Program-made: the position numbers and the translations under genes | Notes under the pieces: generated by a model | Seen by the model: only the letters and a program-made list of their open reading frames with translations | Told to the model about the DNA's origin: nothing | Database searches by the model: none | In this document: in pieces, positions 1,049 to 7,766 of the stretch | Numbering within the stretch: the first letter of the stretch is position 1 | Layout: each line of letters starts with the position of its first letter | Assembly (NCBI GenBank): GCA_902761055.1 | Contig: CACWIS010000009.1 | Span: 1 to 54,876 of the forward strand | Source: Oscillospiraceae bacterium | GTDB taxonomy: Bacteria > Bacillota > Clostridia > Oscillospirales > Oscillospiraceae | DNA: 54,876 nt | Direction of reading: 5' to 3'

Positions 1049-2155
1049 ATGCGTCCTCTGCAACTGTTTCGACGGCTCTGCGCCGCCGCGCTGCTGCTCT
1101 CGCTGCTCACACTGAGCTCCTGCGCCGCCCCGGCGGCGCAGGAGAGTGCGGCTGAAACGCCCATGCCGCAGAAGATCGAACCGAAGGGCAAGGTCTATTA
1201 CAGCTATTTCGACACCGTCTCCTATGTATACGACTATGCGGGAGATTCGGCAGAACGCTTTGACGAGCGTTCTGCCGAAGTTTCACATATCCTGTCGGGA
1301 TACCATCAGCTCTTCGACATCTATCACGAGTACAGCGGCGTCGTCAATCTCTGCACGCTCAACAGGGCGGCCGGGGGCGAGGCGCTTGCGATCGACGGAA
1401 GGCTCGTCGATTTCCTGCTGTACGCAAAGGAGATGTACGAGCTGACGGGCGGCGAGATGAACGTCATGCTCGGCGCGGTGCTGCGCCCCTGGCACGACTG
1501 CCGCGAGGCCGCCGCGAGCGACCCCGCGGGCGCCTCGATCCCCGATGAGGAGACGCTGCGCGAGGCCGCCAGGCACACCGGCATCGAGCTGCTGGAGATC
1601 GACGCGGAGAGAGGCACCGCCCGCATCGCGGACAGCGAGGCCTCGATCGACGTCGGCGCGCTCGGCAAGGGCTACGCCGCGGAGCGCGCGGCGGAGTTTC
1701 TCGAGCGGGACGGCGCGCAGGGCTACGTGCTGAACATCGGCGGCAACATCCGCTGCATCGGCGACCGTCCGGACGGCAGCGGCTGGGTCACGGCCATCCG
1801 CGACCCGGACCGCGCCGCGGAGGGTTACGCCTGCTCGCTGCGCATCCGCGACACCGCCTGCGTGACCTCCGGCGTGTACGAGCGCTATTTCACGGTCGGC
1901 GGCGTCCGTTATCACCATATCATCGACAAGGATACCCTGTACCCCGCGGCGTATTACGCTTCCCTCACCGTCGTCACGCGGGACAGCGCGCTGGCCGACG
2001 CCCTGTCGACCGCCCTGTTCTGCATGCCGTATGAGGACGGAGCGAAGCTCGCGCAGTCGATCGGCGGCGTCGAGCTGCTGTGGATCTTCCCGGACGGGGA
2101 GCAGCGCAGCACGCCCGGCTTTGCCGAGCTGATCGAAGAACCAACACCATCCTGA
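1049..2155 (+). CDS. apbE: FAD:protein FMN transferase (ApbE), lipoprotein
   Basis: ApbE transfers FMN from FAD to a Thr (or Ser) of target proteins outside the cytoplasm, including RnfD and RnfG. The N-terminus is a lipoprotein signal ending in LSSC. Family blocks are present: DVGALGKGYAAERA, GYVLNIGGNIR, the TSG-YER-F block and a late ADALSTALF. The usual IDP-TG-PA block reads IDKDTLYPA, a mild divergence. Length (368 residues) is normal. AGGAG directly abuts the ATG with no spacer, which is unusual; CTG codons 9-15 nt downstream are better placed but rare as starts. The gene sits just before rnfC, as expected for the enzyme that flavinylates this complex. Confidence 0.93.
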   Translation: MRPLQLFRRLCAAALLLSLLTLSSCAAPAAQESAAETPMPQKIEPKGKVYYSYFDTVSYVYDYAGDSAERFDERSAEVSHILSGYHQLFDIYHEYSGVVNLCTLNRAAGGEALAIDGRLVDFLLYAKEMYELTGGEMNVMLGAVLRPWHDCREAAASDPAGASIPDEETLREAARHTGIELLEIDAERGTARIADSEASIDVGALGKGYAAERAAEFLERDGAQGYVLNIGGNIRCIGDRPDGSGWVTAIRDPDRAAEGYACSLRIRDTACVTSGVYERYFTVGGVRYHHIIDKDTLYPAAYYASLTVVTRDSALADALSTALFCMPYEDGAKLAQSIGGVELLWIFPDGEQRSTPGFAELIEEPTPS

Positions 2156-2168
2156 GGAGGCGGGAGAT

Positions 2169-3515
2169 TTGAGCCTGAAAAAAACGATCTCATCCCTGAA
2201 ACTGCCCCACTACAAGAGCACGGCCGGCATGGCGGCCGTGCGCATGGCCGTGCCCAAAGAGGTGCTGCTGCCGATGAACATGCACTCCGGCCAGGCGGCC
2301 GAGCCCGTCGTCGAGGCGGGCCAGCACGTCACCGTCGGTCAGCTCATCGCGCGCGAGGAGGGCCGCAACAGCGCCCCCGTCCACGCCAGCGTCTCCGGCA
2401 CGGTCAAAGCCATCGAGCCTTACGCCGTCGGCGGCCGCAAGACCACGGCGATCCGCATCGAGAGCGACGGCAAGATGGAAAAATGCCCCGATCTGAAGAT
2501 CCCCGCGCCCACGAATCTCGACGAGTTCCTGCAGTGCGTGCGCGAAAGCGGCGTCGTGGGTCTCGGCGGCGCGGCCTTCCCCGTGTGGGCCAAGCTCGCC
2601 GCCGCGCAGAAGAGCCACATCCAGACCGTGCTCATCAACGGCGCGGAGTGCGAGCCCTTCATCACCAGCGACCACCGCGTGATGCTCGAGCACGGCGATC
2701 TCATCGAAAAGGGCATCGCGCTGCTCAAGCAGTTCCTCGGCTCGGAGGAATACATCATCGGCATCGAGAAGAACAAGCCCGACGCCATCGAGGCGCTGAC
2801 CGAGCGCTTCCGCGACGACCCGGCGGTCAAGGTCATGCCGCTCGACAGCGTGTACCCCCAGGGCGCCAAGCAGGTGCTGCTCTACAACGCCACCGGCAAG
2901 GTCGTCGGCCCGGGCCAGCGTCTGGCCTCGCTCGGCGTCATCATCATCAACGTCACCTCGCTCGTCAAAACGGCGGAGTATTTCACGACCGGCATGCCGC
3001 TCGTCGAGCGCATCGTCACGGTCGAGGGCTCGGCCGTGAAGGAGCCGAAGAACCTGATCGTCCCGATCGGCTGCTCAATCCGCGACCTCGTCGAGGCCTG
3101 CGGCGGACTGAAGGAAGAGCCGGGCAAGATCATCTACGGCGGCGCGATGATGGGCAAGACCGTCGACACGCTCGACGCCTCGGTCCTCAAGGCGACCAAC
3201 GCCGTCGTCATCATGAACCGCAGGGACGCGGAGAAGACCAAGGCCTCGCCCTGCATCCACTGCGGACGCTGCGTGGCGGTCTGCCCCCTGGGCCTCAACC
3301 CCACGGCCTTCGCCCGCGCCATGGAGCTGGAGGACGAGGCGGCGCGCGCCGCGCTCCTGCAGAAGGAGCAGGTCTCGCTGTGCATGGAGTGCGGCTGCTG
3401 CAGCTACGTCTGCCCGGCCCACCGCCCGCTCGCGGAGAACAACAGCGCCGCGCGGCGCTTCATCCGCGGCTGGGAGACCGCCCAGAAGGAAAAAGCAAAG
3501 GAAGGAGGGAAGTAA
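2169..3515 (+). CDS. rnfC: Rnf-like electron transport complex subunit RnfC
   Basis: RnfC is the cytoplasmic NADH/FMN and iron-sulfur subunit of Rnf. The start is TTG with AGGAGG 8 bp upstream; that SD overlaps the apbE stop. The N-terminal barrel-sandwich, the GLGGAAFPVWAKL flavin/nucleotide loop, NGAECEPFITSDHR and YPQGAKQ blocks are all present. Two complete [4Fe-4S] motifs are seen: C362/C365/C368/C372 and C405/C408/C411/C415. Length (448 residues) is normal. RnfC therefore looks competent, in contrast to RnfA and RnfE downstream. It heads the order C-D-G-E-A. Confidence 0.93.
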   Translation: MSLKKTISSLKLPHYKSTAGMAAVRMAVPKEVLLPMNMHSGQAAEPVVEAGQHVTVGQLIAREEGRNSAPVHASVSGTVKAIEPYAVGGRKTTAIRIESDGKMEKCPDLKIPAPTNLDEFLQCVRESGVVGLGGAAFPVWAKLAAAQKSHIQTVLINGAECEPFITSDHRVMLEHGDLIEKGIALLKQFLGSEEYIIGIEKNKPDAIEALTERFRDDPAVKVMPLDSVYPQGAKQVLLYNATGKVVGPGQRLASLGVIIINVTSLVKTAEYFTTGMPLVERIVTVEGSAVKEPKNLIVPIGCSIRDLVEACGGLKEEPGKIIYGGAMMGKTVDTLDASVLKATNAVVIMNRRDAEKTKASPCIHCGRCVAVCPLGLNPTAFARAMELEDEAARAALLQKEQVSLCMECGCCSYVCPAHRPLAENNSAARRFIRGWETAQKEKAKEGGK

Positions 3516-3518
3516 GGC

Positions 3519-4448
3519 ATGGACAACAAGCCCGTAATGGCCGCCGGCCCGCATATCCACAGCGCCGACAGCTCCAGGCGGATCATGCTCGACGTCATTC
3601 TCGCGCTGCTTCCCGCCTCGATCGCCGCCGTCGTCCTCTTCGGACCGCGCGCGGCCGCGATGATCTGCGTCTGCGTCGCAGCCGCGGTCGTCTCGGAATT
3701 TCTCTTTAACCTGATCGCCAAACGCGAGCAGTCCGTCGGCGACCTCTCCGCCGTCGTGACCGGCCTGCTGCTGGCCCTCAACCTCTCGACCGGCGTGCCG
3801 CTGTGGCAGTGCGCGCTGGGCTCCGTGTTCGCGATCGTGCTCGTCAAGTGCGCCTTCGGCGGCATGGGCCACAACTTCGCCAACCCCGCCATCACCGCGC
3901 GCGTGTTCCTGCTGATGGCCTTCACCTCCACGGTGGCCGGCGGCGCCGCGCCCCGGATGGTCGACGCCGTCAGCTCCGCCACGCCGCTCGGCCTGATCGG
4001 CACGGAGGGCGCGGCGCTGCCCACGCTGGGCCAGATGTTCCTCGGTCTGCGCGGCGGCGCCGTCGGCGAGGGCTGCATCCTCGCGCTGCTCGTCGGCTTC
4101 GGCTACCTGCTCGTACGCAGGGTCATCTCCTGGCAGATCCCCGTGATCTTCATGGGCACGGTCTTCGTCTGCTTCCTCGTTTCGAGCGGCAGCTTCACCG
4201 TCGCGCTCTACGAGCTGCTCGCCGGAGGCCTGGTGCTCGGCGCGGTCTTCATGGCCACCGATTATACCACGACGCCCATCACGGCCGAGGGCCGGATGCT
4301 CTTCGCGCTGGGCTGCGGTCTGATCACCTTTGTGATCCGCCGCTTCTGCGCGCTCCCCGAGGGCGTGTCCTACTCCATCCTGTGCATGAACATCCTCGCA
4401 CCCTGGCTGGAGAAGTGGACGCGCAGAAAGCCGCTGGGAGGTGTGTGA
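3519..4448 (+). CDS. rnfD: Rnf-like complex membrane subunit RnfD (covalent FMN)
   Basis: An integral membrane protein of 309 residues with 8-10 hydrophobic segments. RnfD carries riboflavin and a phosphoester-linked FMN on a Thr on the outer face. The attachment block is intact: DAVSSATPLG around residues 149-158, with T155 the expected FMN site. The conserved GGMGHNFANPA and FMATDYTTTPIT segments are also present. It starts 3 bp after rnfC with GGAGGG upstream and ends one base before rnfG, so the genes are translationally coupled. ApbE encoded upstream is the likely flavinylating enzyme. Confidence 0.93.
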   Translation: MDNKPVMAAGPHIHSADSSRRIMLDVILALLPASIAAVVLFGPRAAAMICVCVAAAVVSEFLFNLIAKREQSVGDLSAVVTGLLLALNLSTGVPLWQCALGSVFAIVLVKCAFGGMGHNFANPAITARVFLLMAFTSTVAGGAAPRMVDAVSSATPLGLIGTEGAALPTLGQMFLGLRGGAVGEGCILALLVGFGYLLVRRVISWQIPVIFMGTVFVCFLVSSGSFTVALYELLAGGLVLGAVFMATDYTTTPITAEGRMLFALGCGLITFVIRRFCALPEGVSYSILCMNILAPWLEKWTRRKPLGGV

Positions 4449-4449
4449 T

Positions 4450-5724
4450 ATGAAAAACTCTCTTTTGCGTACCGCGCTTTCTCTGCTGCTCCTGCTGGCG
4501 CTGATGGCCGGACTCGTCTACGGCGTCAACAGCTTCTCCGCCCCGATCGTGGCGGAGAACGAGCGTCTCGCGGCCGAGGCCGCCGCTGCCGCCGAAAAGG
4601 CGCTGCTCGGCGACTCCGTCATGCTCTATGACCGCGCCGATCCCGCCGCCTCCGCGCTGACGGTCACGGCCGACACGGTCCAGTCCGTCTACAGGGACGA
4701 GAGCAAGCAGAGCTATCTGCTGCGTCTCTCCACCTTTGAAGGCTATACCAAGGACGTGCCCATCGAGCTGACGCTCGTCGTCGACTTCGAGGGGAAGATC
4801 GTCTCCCTCGCCGTTGAGTCCAGCGGCGAGACCAAGGAACTGAGCGAGGACTTCCTGCCGAGCTTCGCCGGCCAGGATTCCACCCTCGCGGGCGTCGAGC
4901 TCGTCGCGGGCGTGACCTTCTCCTCCTCCGCGATCCGGAACGCCGTCAACGACGGCTTCAACGCCTTGATCGAAAACGGTCTCTTCGCCGCCGCCGAGAA
5001 GAGCGACGAGCAGCTCCTGCGCGAGCTCCTCGCCGTCGTCTATCCCGGACTGGTGAACAAGGCCGGCGTCGTCCAGGGCGAGGAGCTCGCGGGCGCGGGC
5101 AGCGTCACGAGCGGCTACAAGGCCGCCAACGGCAGCGGCTTCGCCTGGTTCGTCGGCGGTGAGAAGGAGCTGCTGGCCGTCAGCACGACGCTCGGCGGCG
5201 TGAAGCTCTACGACGCCGCGGGCGAGGACGTGACCGCCTCCGCGGACGCCGCGCTGCTCGACGAGATCCGGAGCCTGAGCGAGGCAAACGCCGAGGACTT
5301 CTCCGCCGAGACGGAAAAGAATCTCGCGAAGATGCTCGAAGAGGGCGCCGCGCTGACGGCGGCGGAGATCCCCGGCCTGTGCAGTACGGTCGTCGGGGCC
5401 TATACCGTCGAGACCGCGGAGGGCACGCTTTACGCCTTCGCCGCGCATCCCTACGGCTATTCCAACGAGCCGATGGAGCTCTACTACGTGCTCGACGAGA
5501 GCGGAGCGATCACCGCCTTCCGCGCCAAGGAGCTGATCCTCTATTCCGAGTATTTCAGCAACTACACCCTTGACGAGCCGAGCTACAAGGAAGGCTTCCT
5601 CGGTCTGACCGCGGAGAGCTTCAACGGCGAACAGGCGCTGATCGCCGGCGCCACGATGAGCACCGACGCGGTCGATACCGCGACGCGCGACGTGTTCGAG
5701 GCCTTCGGGCTTCTCAAAGGCTAA
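4450..5724 (+). CDS. rnfG: RnfG-like subunit with duplicated FMN-binding domain
   Basis: RnfG is normally ~200 residues with one transmembrane anchor and one extracytoplasmic FMN_bind domain. This protein has 424 residues. After an N-terminal anchor (residues ~7-24) come a first FMN_bind-like domain ending in AGVTFSSSAI (T156) and a second ending in IAGATMSTDAV (T402). The second keeps the canonical G-A-T; the first reads G-V-T. The stretch between them (~190-290) may be a third, decayed copy. The start ATG at 4450 is chosen because GGGAGG lies 8 bp upstream; an in-frame GTG nine bases earlier has no SD. The duplication suggests more than one covalent flavin, which is inference. Confidence 0.88.
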   Translation: MKNSLLRTALSLLLLLALMAGLVYGVNSFSAPIVAENERLAAEAAAAAEKALLGDSVMLYDRADPAASALTVTADTVQSVYRDESKQSYLLRLSTFEGYTKDVPIELTLVVDFEGKIVSLAVESSGETKELSEDFLPSFAGQDSTLAGVELVAGVTFSSSAIRNAVNDGFNALIENGLFAAAEKSDEQLLRELLAVVYPGLVNKAGVVQGEELAGAGSVTSGYKAANGSGFAWFVGGEKELLAVSTTLGGVKLYDAAGEDVTASADAALLDEIRSLSEANAEDFSAETEKNLAKMLEEGAALTAAEIPGLCSTVVGAYTVETAEGTLYAFAAHPYGYSNEPMELYYVLDESGAITAFRAKELILYSEYFSNYTLDEPSYKEGFLGLTAESFNGEQALIAGATMSTDAVDTATRDVFEAFGLLKG

Positions 5725-5736
5725 GGAGGTGCGCGC

Positions 5737-6372
5737 ATGAACGAAAGAAAGCTTCTGTTCCGCAGCCCCGTGACGCTGCTGTTCCTCGGCGCCGTGCCCG
5801 CTCTGGGCGCGAGTGCGGATCTGCGCGGCGCGCTGGGCATGAGCGCCGCCGTTCTCGGCGTGCTGCTCCTCTCCGCGCTGATCCTGGGCCTGCTGCGCAA
5901 GCTGATCCCCGCCGAGGCCAAGCTCCCCGCGGCCGTGCTGGTCGTGGCCGGCTGCGCCTCCGCGGCCCAGCTGCTGCTCCACGCGCTGCTGCCCGCCGTC
6001 TGGGAGATGCTCGGCTTCTACGCCGCCGTGCTCGCCGTCGACCTGATGCTCTTCGCCGCGGCGGAGGACGCCGTGGACTTCGGGCTCGGCAAGGGTCTCT
6101 GCAGCGCGCTGGCGAGCGGTCTGATCTTCGCCGCCTTCGTGCTGGCGCTCGCCCTGATCCGCGAGCTGTTCGGCGCGGCCTCCCTGGCCGGCAATCCGGT
6201 CGAGGCGCTCGCGGCCTACAAGATCCCCCTGCTGACGAAGGTCTCCGGCGGGCTCGTCGTGTACGCGATCCTGCTGGCCGTCGTCAACGCCGTCTGCCCC
6301 GCGCAGGACGGCGCCGGCGAGCTGAGCCGCGCCGCGGCCGGGCTCGGTGAAGAGAAGGAGGCGCAGGCATGA
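5737..6372 (+). CDS. rnfE: RnfE-like membrane subunit lacking the 2Fe-2S cysteines
   Basis: A six-helix protein of 211 residues of the RnfE/NqrD family. In characterised Rnf/Nqr, one Cys from each of two half-helices of RnfE (motifs like GLCP and VNC--L) binds the intramembrane [2Fe-2S] cluster together with RnfA. Here the first block reads FLGAVPALG (V20 in place of Cys). The second reads AVDLMLFAAAE (D102-L103 in place of Asn-Cys). The rest of the family pattern, including KLIP--AKLP, ALIRELFG and the C-terminal helix, is recognisable. SD AAGGAGG is 9 bp upstream. The gene overlaps rnfA by 4 bp. The residues at the ligand positions suggest that no cluster is formed. Confidence 0.85.
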   Translation: MNERKLLFRSPVTLLFLGAVPALGASADLRGALGMSAAVLGVLLLSALILGLLRKLIPAEAKLPAAVLVVAGCASAAQLLLHALLPAVWEMLGFYAAVLAVDLMLFAAAEDAVDFGLGKGLCSALASGLIFAAFVLALALIRELFGAASLAGNPVEALAAYKIPLLTKVSGGLVVYAILLAVVNAVCPAQDGAGELSRAAAGLGEEKEAQA

Positions 6373-6899
6373 AAGAAATGATCCTTCTGATCCTCGGCTT
6401 CGTGCTGATCAACAACTACGCCCTGAGCACCGCCCTCGGCCTCGTGCCGCTGCTCGGCTTTGCCTCGCAGCGCGGCAGGATCCTCACGCTGGGTCTGAGC
6501 GTGACGGGCGTGACGCTGCTCACGGCGCTGCTGCTGTGGCTGCTGCGCGGCGTGATCCCGGCCCACTTCCAGATCCTGGCCGCCGCGGTGATCGTGCTGG
6601 CGCTGGTGTACCTGCTGCAGCTCGTCTGCGGCAAAAAGCTCGGTCTGTGGTTCCCGCTCATCGCGCTCAACAGCGCGGTGCTCGGTCTGGCGCTGAACGC
6701 CGCCGGAGCCGAGAGCGTCGGTACCGTGATCGCGAGCGCCCTCGGCGTCGGTCTCGGCTTCCTCTTCGGGCTGTTCCTCTTTGCCGGTCTGCAGAAGCGG
6801 ATCGAGCCGGAGCACCTGCCCAGAGCCTTCCGCGGCTTCCCGATCCAGATCCTGGCCGCGGCGATCGTCGCGCTGGCGCTCACCGCCTTCCAGTTCTGA
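6369..6899 (+). CDS. rnfA: RnfA-like membrane subunit lacking the 2Fe-2S cysteines
   Basis: An RnfA/NqrE-family membrane protein of 176 residues, slightly shorter than the usual ~190. The VLINNYALS start and the RAFRGFPIQILAAAIVALAL end are typical. The two cluster-ligand positions are changed: GLCP is GLVP (V26) and TNC is LNS (S102). With the same loss in RnfE, all four Cys ligands are gone. The only Cys (residue 87) lies outside the known ligand positions. In canonical operons rnfB comes next; here a NusG-domain-II gene starts on the stop codon (TGATG), and no RnfB-like ferredoxin protein occurs in the window. Confidence 0.85.
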   Translation: MKEMILLILGFVLINNYALSTALGLVPLLGFASQRGRILTLGLSVTGVTLLTALLLWLLRGVIPAHFQILAAAVIVLALVYLLQLVCGKKLGLWFPLIALNSAVLGLALNAAGAESVGTVIASALGVGLGFLFGLFLFAGLQKRIEPEHLPRAFRGFPIQILAAAIVALALTAFQF

Positions 6900-7279
6900 T
6901 GAAGGACTTTTTCGCCGACCGGAAACGGCGGGCGGACCTGCTCGTGATCGGCGCGCTGCTCCTCCTTGCGCTCGTGCTGTATCTTGTGATCGGCGCGACG
7001 CGCACGGAGGGCGGCGTCGCCGTCGTACGCGTGGACGGCGTCGAGACCGAACGCCACGCGCTCTCGGCGGACGGGACCTACCCGCTCAACGGCGGCAGCA
7101 ACATCCTCGTCATCGGGGACGGCCAGGCCTGGCTTTCGGATGCGAACTGCCCGGATCTGCTCTGCGTCAGGCAGGGCAAGATCCACTACACCGGGCAGTC
7201 GATCATCTGTCTGCCGAACCGCCTGACCGTCACCGTCGAGGGCGGCGAGTCGGACGGCGTGGATTTTGTGGTGGGCTGA
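6899..7279 (+). CDS. NusG domain II-containing membrane-anchored protein
   Basis: A 126-residue protein with one N-terminal transmembrane helix (~residues 13-33) and an extracytoplasmic NusG_II domain. It carries the family's three-Cys pattern: DANCPDLLC followed by SIICLPN. Such proteins often sit near apbE, rnf and Gx-transporter genes in Clostridia; their biochemical role is not settled. The ATG overlaps the rnfA stop (TGATG), so translation is coupled to the complex. The Cys pattern could serve redox or metal binding; nothing in the sequence decides between these. Confidence 0.82.
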   Translation: MKDFFADRKRRADLLVIGALLLLALVLYLVIGATRTEGGVAVVRVDGVETERHALSADGTYPLNGGSNILVIGDGQAWLSDANCPDLLCVRQGKIHYTGQSIICLPNRLTVTVEGGESDGVDFVVG

Positions 7280-7280
7280 T

Positions 7281-7766
7281 ATGAAAACGAAAAAAATTAC
7301 GGTCCTGGCCATGTGCGTCGCTCTGGCGATGATCCTTTCCTACGTCGAGAGCCTGATCCCCTCGCCCGGCATCCCCGGCGTCAAGCTGGGGCTTGCCAAC
7401 ATCGTGGTCATCTTTGCCCTCTACAAGCTCGGCTGGAAAGAGGCCGCGGGGATCTCGCTGCTGCGCGTGTTCCTCGTCTCGCTGCTCTTCGGCCACGCGG
7501 CCAGTCTGATGTACAGCGCCTCGGGCGCGGTGCTCAGCCTCGCGGGCATGATCCTGCTCAAGAGGACGGACCGGCTCGGCTGCGTCGCCGTCAGCGTGAT
7601 CGGCGGCGTGCTGCACAACGCGGGCCAGATCCTGATGGCCTGGCTGCTGATGGGGCCGAACGTGGTCTACTATCTGCCGGTGCTGGTTTTGAGCGGCACC
7701 GTCGCGGGCGTGGCCATCGGCGCGGTCTCCGCGCTGATCGTGAAGCGCGTGGACCTGAAAATCTGA
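7281..7766 (+). CDS. Gx transporter / heptaprenyl diphosphate synthase component I family membrane protein
   Basis: A hydrophobic 161-residue protein with about five membrane segments. It has the family's glycine-rich start (SYVESLIPSPGIPGVKLGLAN) and the FGHAASLMYSASGA block. The family is annotated both as 'Gx transporter' (ECF-like) and as a quinone side-chain synthase component. Its regular place beside NusG_II and ApbE genes points to transport or redox-cofactor supply. It begins one base after the preceding stop and is the last gene before a terminator. The ATG at 7281 is chosen; an in-frame upstream TTG lies inside the previous gene. Confidence 0.8.
   Translation: MKTKKITVLAMCVALAMILSYVESLIPSPGIPGVKLGLANIVVIFALYKLGWKEAAGISLLRVFLVSLLFGHAASLMYSASGAVLSLAGMILLKRTDRLGCVAVSVIGGVLHNAGQILMAWLLMGPNVVYYLPVLVLSGTVAGVAIGAVSALIVKRVDLKI

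Follow-up and report, generated by a model that had tools for sequence, protein, structure and literature searches.

An rnf operon lacking rnfB and the intramembrane [2Fe-2S] ligands in an Oscillospiraceae genome

The DNA stretch analysed here (the window; 54,876 nucleotides) is contig CACWIS010000009.1 (C9) of a draft Oscillospiraceae genome (GCA_902761055.1) that consists of 45 contigs and is 80.7% complete. Nine plus-strand genes lie in its first 7.8 kb in the order lipoprotein, apbE, rnfC, rnfD, rnfG, rnfE', rnfA', eetA and eetB (Table 1), and the operon extends from at least position 2, where the contig start truncates the first gene, to position 7766. Homologues of RnfC, RnfD, RnfG, RnfE and RnfA are found together in this operon, as in Rnf complexes, and the four cysteines that hold the [2Fe-2S] cluster of RnfA and RnfE are missing from it. 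RnfC and RnfD were assigned through NCBIfam models above cut-off and RnfG through PF04205 only (a single match in the protein of the window, against two in the relative L080), while RnfA' and RnfE' exceeded the PF02508 cut-off but fell far below the NCBIfam cut-offs for rnfA and rnfE. RnfB was not found in the operon by profile search, and eetA (NusG_II domain) and eetB come after rnfA' instead. With apbE beside an FMN_bind protein that carries an [ST]GA[ST]-like site, the operon also has the make-up of an ApbE-flavinylated extracytosolic system. An earlier note, made from the sequence alone, had described an Rnf-like complex at 2169–6899 with no rnfB behind rnfA. The missing rnfB was borne out, the extent proved too short, and the note had overlooked apbE, the lipoprotein, eetA/eetB, the second flavin mononucleotide (FMN) site of RnfG and a canonical rnf operon elsewhere in the genome.

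Table 1. Features of the variant rnf operon in the window (aa, amino acids; NADH, reduced nicotinamide adenine dinucleotide; FAD, flavin adenine dinucleotide; ECF-S, substrate-binding subunit of energy-coupling factor transporters).
Feature	Position	Strand	Basis or remark
Secreted tandem-repeat protein, 340 aa visible, 5' end lost at contig start	2..1024	+	candidate FMN carrier with two sites; resembles a lipoprotein in most relatives
ApbE-family FMN transferase	1049..2155	+	PF02424 1.4e-62
RnfC, NADH/FMN-type motifs, two [4Fe-4S] motifs, listed start TTG	2169..3515	+	TIGR01945 413.9 bits, above cut-off
RnfD, 309 aa, flavinylation threonine, riboflavin-site residues	3519..4448	+	TIGR01946 267.8 bits, above cut-off; ATPL, NxxNPA, FMATD
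RnfG-like, 427 aa, two FMN sites (AGVTFSS, AGATMST)	4441..5724	+	PF04205
RnfE' without intramembrane Cys ligands	5737..6372	+	PF02508 1.8e-19; TIGR01948 65 vs cut-off 213.4 bits; aligned to 7zc6_E, 9eri_E
RnfE' V20, first ligand position	5794..5796	+	alignment; C in 18/39 variant rows
RnfE' L103, second ligand position	6043..6045	+	alignment; L in 39/39 variant rows
RnfA' without intramembrane Cys ligands	6369..6899	+	PF02508 6.2e-25; TIGR01943 80.1 vs cut-off 229.3 bits; aligned to 9eri_A, 7zc6_A
RnfA' V26, first ligand position	6444..6446	+	alignment
RnfA' S102, second ligand position	6672..6674	+	alignment
EetA (NusG_II domain)	6899..7279	+	PF07009 2.3e-26; sits where related canonical operons have rnfB then eetA
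EetB (Hpre_diP_synt_I), ECF-S-like FAD-export subunit family	7266..7766	+	PF07456 6.1e-40; family function as described in PMC9973259

The ligand columns were mapped on Vibrio NqrE C26/C120 and NqrD C29/C112 in 39 variant rows (the window, 37 named loci, L054–L090, and the divergent locus L167) and 42 canonical rows, the latter from 39 genomes, with L162, L165 and L166 repeating the genomes of L098, L094 and L096. Cysteine stood at these columns in all of the solved Rnf/Nqr chains aligned, and all four cysteines were kept in 42 of 42 canonical rows. At these columns RnfA' carries V26 and S102 and RnfE' carries V20 and L103, just as the earlier note had placed them. Among the variant rows, the first RnfA' site was T in 28, V in 4, S in 4 and A in 3, and the second was S in 36 with T, G and A once each. 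The second RnfE' site was L in every row and the first was C in 18, A in 12, V in 8 and F in 1, so that none of the 39 rows kept more than one of the four cysteines. The proposal that all four ligands had gone together held in the window but not in the clade as a whole. The four losses were not a single event: three are clade-wide, and the state of the fourth, which varies, takes no fewer than two changes to explain on the RnfD tree described below.

In Nqr, the NqrD-C29A complex is described as lacking the cluster while it could still be isolated and measured (PMC10643135). Because this single first-site change removes the cluster there, the variant members that keep the RnfE first-site Cys should also be cluster-free. 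Replacement of the lost ligands by other cysteines was considered and rejected, as none of the columns that are invariant, or nearly so, in the alignments of variant RnfA and RnfE held a substitute Cys, and these alignments contained no new invariant Cys or His. The residues that the earlier note had singled out as possible substitutes (C87 of RnfA' and C73, C117 and C202 of RnfE') were all away from the ligand sites.

The cofactor sites of the other core subunits, which the same note had reported as kept in the window, were retained clade-wide (L168, which duplicates the record of L062, is counted in the figures that follow). All eight cluster cysteines of RnfC were present in each of the 38 rows that cover them, as were its GGAx[FY]P and ECEP motifs in the 36 rows with coverage there. 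In RnfD, the ATP(L) threonine and NxxNPA were found in 37 of 37 rows and FMATD, the Asp of which corresponds to the riboflavin-binding residue NqrB-D346, in 38 of 38. Both flavinylation threonines of RnfG (two GxT sites) were kept in 39 of 39 covering rows. At L061 (701–2866), a single open frame of ∼720 aa runs across the places of rnfD and rnfG, either as a fusion or as a run-on frame.

We also compared residues that have been connected with ion pumping in Nqr, where a salt bridge between NqrE-E95 and NqrD-R71 of Vibrio is described as holding one state of a conformational switch and E95 and D133 are discussed as Na+ sites (PMC10643135, PMC7414866). All 42 canonical rows had E in the NqrE-E95 column, but 33 of the 39 variant rows had another residue there, which was D in 7 and no acid in the other 26. 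The NqrD-D133 column likewise held D throughout the 42 canonical rows, and a different residue in 35 of the 39 variant rows. The R71 column remained basic in 32 of the 39. On these alignments, the redox switch seems to have been abandoned along with the cluster, though not uniformly. Ratios of nonsynonymous to synonymous substitution rates (dN/dS) over eight pairs were 0.02–0.14 for RnfC, 0.14–0.46 for RnfA' and 0.12–0.50 for RnfE', and were below 1 for every subunit and pair computed (highest 0.66, in EetA), indicating that RnfA' and RnfE' are less constrained than RnfC yet still under purifying selection.

The lipoprotein consists of two repeats, each of which has the Ser/Thr of an A-[SGT]-[CV]-[ST] motif in all 33 rows. 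A lipobox-like N-terminus was matched by a regular expression in 26 of 31 relatives. No Pfam family exceeded its cut-off (DUF7876 reached 16 against 27 bits), and NCBIfam gave weak matches, most of them to lipoprotein families; PplA was matched by 1 of 30 proteins at an E-value of 0.017. When single repeats were compared with the FMN_bind domains of RnfG by hhalign, the probability was 79.8% (0.2% for an RnfC control); the whole lipoprotein gave 40.8%, and a comparison of the full alignments reached 71% across 38 columns. The lipoprotein stretch A-G-C-T-I-S was placed by hhalign on the flavinylation site, and we regard the protein as a likely FMN carrier. The AlphaFold2 (AF2) model of the lipoprotein had a predicted local distance difference test (pLDDT) score of 89. 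At L064 (1569–3566), the lipoprotein is doubled to 666 aa with four repeats. As to the genes at the other end of the operon, Listeria EetB is reported to be required for FAD export and flavinylation, and eetA deletion to leave extracellular electron transfer (EET) without a phenotype (PMC9973259).

We obtained 40 loci in named genomes, comprising 37 full-type variants (L054–L090), one divergent partial copy (L091) and two outsiders (L092 and L093). Among the 37, eetA lay beside rnfA' in all, and eetB, apbE and the lipoprotein were found in 32, 32 and 31, respectively; the five loci without apbE were short pieces, and L059 had space for a lipoprotein but none was recognised. An rnfB gene was recognised in none of the 37 operons, and a clade of homologues lacking rnfB and sharing three of the four losses throughout, close to what the earlier note had asked for, exists. 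L054 gave a 31-bit ferredoxin-like match on the opposite strand, and the L087 piece includes rnfC of an adjoining canonical operon, the rnfB of which is visible in the larger piece L053. Where record titles state a source, it was animal gut or rumen, and one of the genomes was that of Candidatus Limivicinus faecipullorum. Among the genomes searched as assemblies, all variants belonged to the genus of the window, where the full variant occurred in 12 of the 28 genomes besides its own, and the divergent form in one more (G014); these are drafts and absences are soft. The divergent copy (L167/L091), from a metagenome-assembled genome (MAG) of horse faeces, had V/A and F/L at the four sites and eetB with no recognised eetA, was partial and showed oddly overlapping rnfE' and rnfA' frames.

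The best-scoring loci opened in broader sets, in which lower-scoring matches were not read residue by residue, gave no sign that the variant is widespread. The best 30 loci of the class set (391 genomes) were the window and 29 canonical operons, the 12 opened in the phylum set (398 genomes) were the window and 11 canonical operons, and the 30 opened in the family set (300 genomes) were the window, two other variants and 27 canonical operons (one with RnfE not seen). Two RnfA-type matches (G611:C7:28632-29150 and G659:C24:15756-16295) lay inside longer open frames (410 and 423 aa, respectively) that may be fusions.

The genome of the window also has a canonical rnfCDGEAB operon on contig C1 with all four cysteines and rnfB above cut-off, which supplied the second operon that the earlier note had proposed to look for, and loss of all canonical rnf from the genome was rejected. 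Eleven of the 12 other variant-bearing genomes likewise had rnfB above cut-off. The remaining one, G023 (95% complete, 40 contigs), had a best rnfB match of 37.2 bits against a cut-off of 68.7 and no second RnfA-type match, and seems to carry the variant alone.

RnfD trees were computed for 51 and 48 rows with 36 variants. The first included three long canonical branches of unsure placement, and the second omitted these and has no outgroup rooting. The 36 variants formed one side of a branch with support of 100/99, and in the first tree they grouped (99/92) with the canonical loci L156, L162 and L166. The gene order of L156 and L162 was C-D-G-E-A-B-eetA-eetB, and L166 was cut after rnfB. In L156 (G565:C52, 4868–13542), canonical rnfCDGEAB with four cysteines was found together with a two-site RnfG, eetA, eetB, the lipoprotein and apbE, and this apparent two-branch Rnf is likely an intermediate. 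The simplest history suggested by these gene orders would be that an Rnf acquired an outward branch and then dropped the rnfB between rnfA and eetA, together with the cluster.

In canonical Rnf, electrons are described as passing from ferredoxin through RnfB, the RnfA/E cluster, the FMN of RnfG and the FMN and riboflavin of RnfD to RnfC and NAD+ (PMC12174285). We consider it quite probable that the operon encodes a derived Rnf in which the limb fed by ferredoxin (RnfB together with the [2Fe-2S] cluster of RnfA/E) is gone and the NADH limb is kept and carries electrons outward. With the ferredoxin limb lost, only RnfG-RnfD-RnfC-NAD(H) is still wired, and the presence of apbE, EetB, a second RnfG FMN site and the lipoprotein favours a flow that starts at NADH and leads outward. 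NADH would reduce RnfC (FMN and two [4Fe-4S]), from which electrons would cross the membrane through the riboflavin and covalent FMN of RnfD, pass to the two covalent FMN of RnfG and then to the flavinylated lipoprotein, and leave for outside acceptors, for example free flavin, metals or flavin-fused reductases. The FMN would be attached by ApbE, and FAD would be supplied outside by EetB, perhaps with EetA. RnfA' and RnfE' would carry no electrons and would persist as a cluster-free scaffold for RnfD and RnfG, the redox-driven RnfA/E switch presumably being lost. The second Rnf copy would then probably serve as a one-way wire from NADH to extracellular proteins in uncultured, largely animal-gut bacteria. 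The route through RnfC to external flavins suggested by the earlier note is the best fit to losses shared by an rnfB-less clade. Its appeal to another way across the membrane is unneeded, since the FMN/riboflavin path of RnfD, with its sites intact here, already crosses in canonical Rnf.

The variant belongs within the Rnf/Nqr kind, and the earlier observation is confirmed while its interpretation is partly supported and refined. It shares with canonical Rnf, including the Clostridia form with eetA/eetB (eetB is reported to adjoin Rnf in 572 Clostridia genomes; PMC9973259), the homologues of RnfC, D, G, E and A in the order C-D-G-E-A, but lacks RnfB and the RnfA/E ligand set and has an RnfG with two FMN sites and an extra lipoprotein. 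Nqr is also thought to derive from a duplicated rnf operon, with loss of rnfB and of the RnfC cofactors and recruitment of NqrF (PMC4014512). Na+-NQR retains the NqrD/E cluster and has NqrF and a cofactor-free NqrA, whereas the variant has lost the RnfA/E sites and kept those of RnfC, and none of the nine operon proteins matched an NqrF-type family. Two-subunit Nqr/Rnf-like systems, in which an RnfD/NqrB-type domain without the flavinylation threonine is fused to PF00175, have been proposed to move electrons one way from NAD(P)H to outside flavin (PMC8238504, PMC11334425). The principle is therefore already known and the parts differ here: the variant RnfD is fed by RnfC, keeps the threonine, is accompanied by RnfA' and RnfE' and, in the window (309 aa), has PF03116 only. 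Additional RnfG FMN sites are shared with Rnf complexes that have a multi-flavinylated RnfG, for which a second path to outside acceptors has been proposed, and because the same 2021 survey counts a cluster as Rnf only with rnfB present, it would pass over the variant clade (PMC8238504).

Flavin-based EET of Listeria (PplA, FmnB, EetA and EetB) resembles the operon in ApbE, EetA and EetB and in having a lipoprotein, here a possible flavin carrier; in the operon, eetA, eetB and apbE are present and flavinylation of the lipoprotein is suggested by hhalign only. Listeria EET uses Ndh2 and demethylmenaquinone, in place of which the Rnf core stands here; no genes for these were found in the operon, the rest of the genome not having been searched for them. 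Among the open-access papers searched, subscription papers being outside the search, we found no report of an rnfB-less, cluster-free Rnf.

Coupling of electron flow to ion pumping in Rnf/Nqr is still debated, and in one model the redox state of the NqrD/E cluster drives the Na+-pumping movements (PMC10643135). If our reading is true, a cluster-free RnfA/E that has also lost most of the linked acidic residues, with RnfD and its flavin and riboflavin sites kept, would be a case in which nature has uncoupled electron transfer across the membrane from the switch proposed to drive pumping, allowing one to ask what electron-free RnfA/E do and whether RnfD alone moves ions, and an outward NADH route would be added in uncultured gut and rumen bacteria. 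It would also be a second outcome of rnf duplication and a mirror of Nqr, in which RnfC decayed where here RnfA/E did. We lean towards regarding the variant as a third Rnf/Nqr branch, a cluster-free, rnfB-free and dedicated NADH:extracellular flavin oxidoreductase that arose by rnf duplication and loss of rnfB, which may be uncoupled or oppositely coupled.

Several observations weigh against outward transfer through a cluster-free complex. No FMN_bind match of the lipoprotein was strong enough to be accepted, and a Foldseek search of its model against the PDB returned no credible relative. Loss of the acids is uneven (E6/D7 in the E95 column and D4/E1 in the D133 column of the 39 rows). The AF2 model of RnfA' is only moderate (pLDDT 68), and Foldseek matched it to RnfE/NqrD/NqrE chains at probability 1.00 but with E-values of 0.02 or worse and a template modelling (TM) score of ∼0.5. 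The variant genomes examined are MAGs or drafts of many contigs, and an NrfA-type nitrite reductase that might accept the electrons shows no clear association with the variant (10 of 13 variant-bearing against 9 of 16 other same-genus genomes). The same wiring could also run in reverse, with outside electrons entering through the lipoprotein and RnfG to reduce NAD+ at RnfC, and every part of this path is retained. Such uptake would require an outside donor near or below the potential of NADH, and fermenting gut bacteria usually hold surplus NADH, which counts against it. The order RnfG, RnfD, RnfC, NAD+ is the forward direction of canonical Rnf (PMC12174285), but eetB and apbE are associated with outward transfer in Listeria (PMC9973259), and we regard uptake as unlikely.

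A redox or metal centre held in RnfA' and RnfE' by other ligands, namely Thr26/Ser102 of RnfA' and the Asp/Asn preceding L103 of RnfE', would fit the frequent S/T at the RnfA' sites (T28 and S4; S36 and T1 of 39) and the D or N that precedes the lost second ligand of RnfE' in most rows displayed. It is nevertheless very improbable, given V or A at position 26 of some RnfA' rows, the uniform L at position 103 of RnfE', the variation between C, A, V and F at position 20 and the lack of a new invariant Cys or His. Slightly less probable still is cooperation with the canonical complex, by a borrowed RnfB or swapped RnfG/RnfD; both operons do occur in the window's genome and rnfB in most other variant genomes, but without the cluster RnfB has no reducible partner in RnfA'/E', and G023 has the variant with no rnfB above cut-off. 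That the operon is decaying could be argued from the faster evolution of RnfA'/E' than of RnfC/D and from the partial divergent copy, yet gene order is conserved over the clade, dN/dS is below 1 throughout and cofactor sites are invariant, making decay highly implausible. Least credible of all is an assembly or sequencing error: the window is a draft contig of an incomplete genome, but its losses recur in public data of several sequencing projects, at 37 named loci, on which ground we rejected such an error, in line with the earlier argument against chance.

As for possible acceptors of the proposed outward route, the window's genome encodes on contig C12 (∼94106–95512; L153:304-1911, minus strand) a 536-aa fusion of FMN_bind and an NrfA-type nitrite reductase with CWTCK and four CxxCH motifs. 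An NrfH/NapC-type gene (PF03264) was found in none of the 13 variant-bearing genomes, this one included. NrfA was present in 19 of the 29 same-genus genomes searched, and in 12 of the 19 its reading frame also encodes FMN_bind. Eight of the 10 in variant-bearing genomes were fused, one was unfused and one was cut by a contig end, and 4 of the 9 in the other genomes, among which the divergent G014 is counted, were fused. A flavin-fused NrfA could accept electrons from the variant complex, but it is not a general acceptor, because three variant genomes, one of them 99% complete, show no NrfA. In the same genus, unfused NrfA was also found within ∼1.1 kb of canonical rnf at L172 (G024:C105:60967-62031) and L175 (G020:C120:4971-6032).

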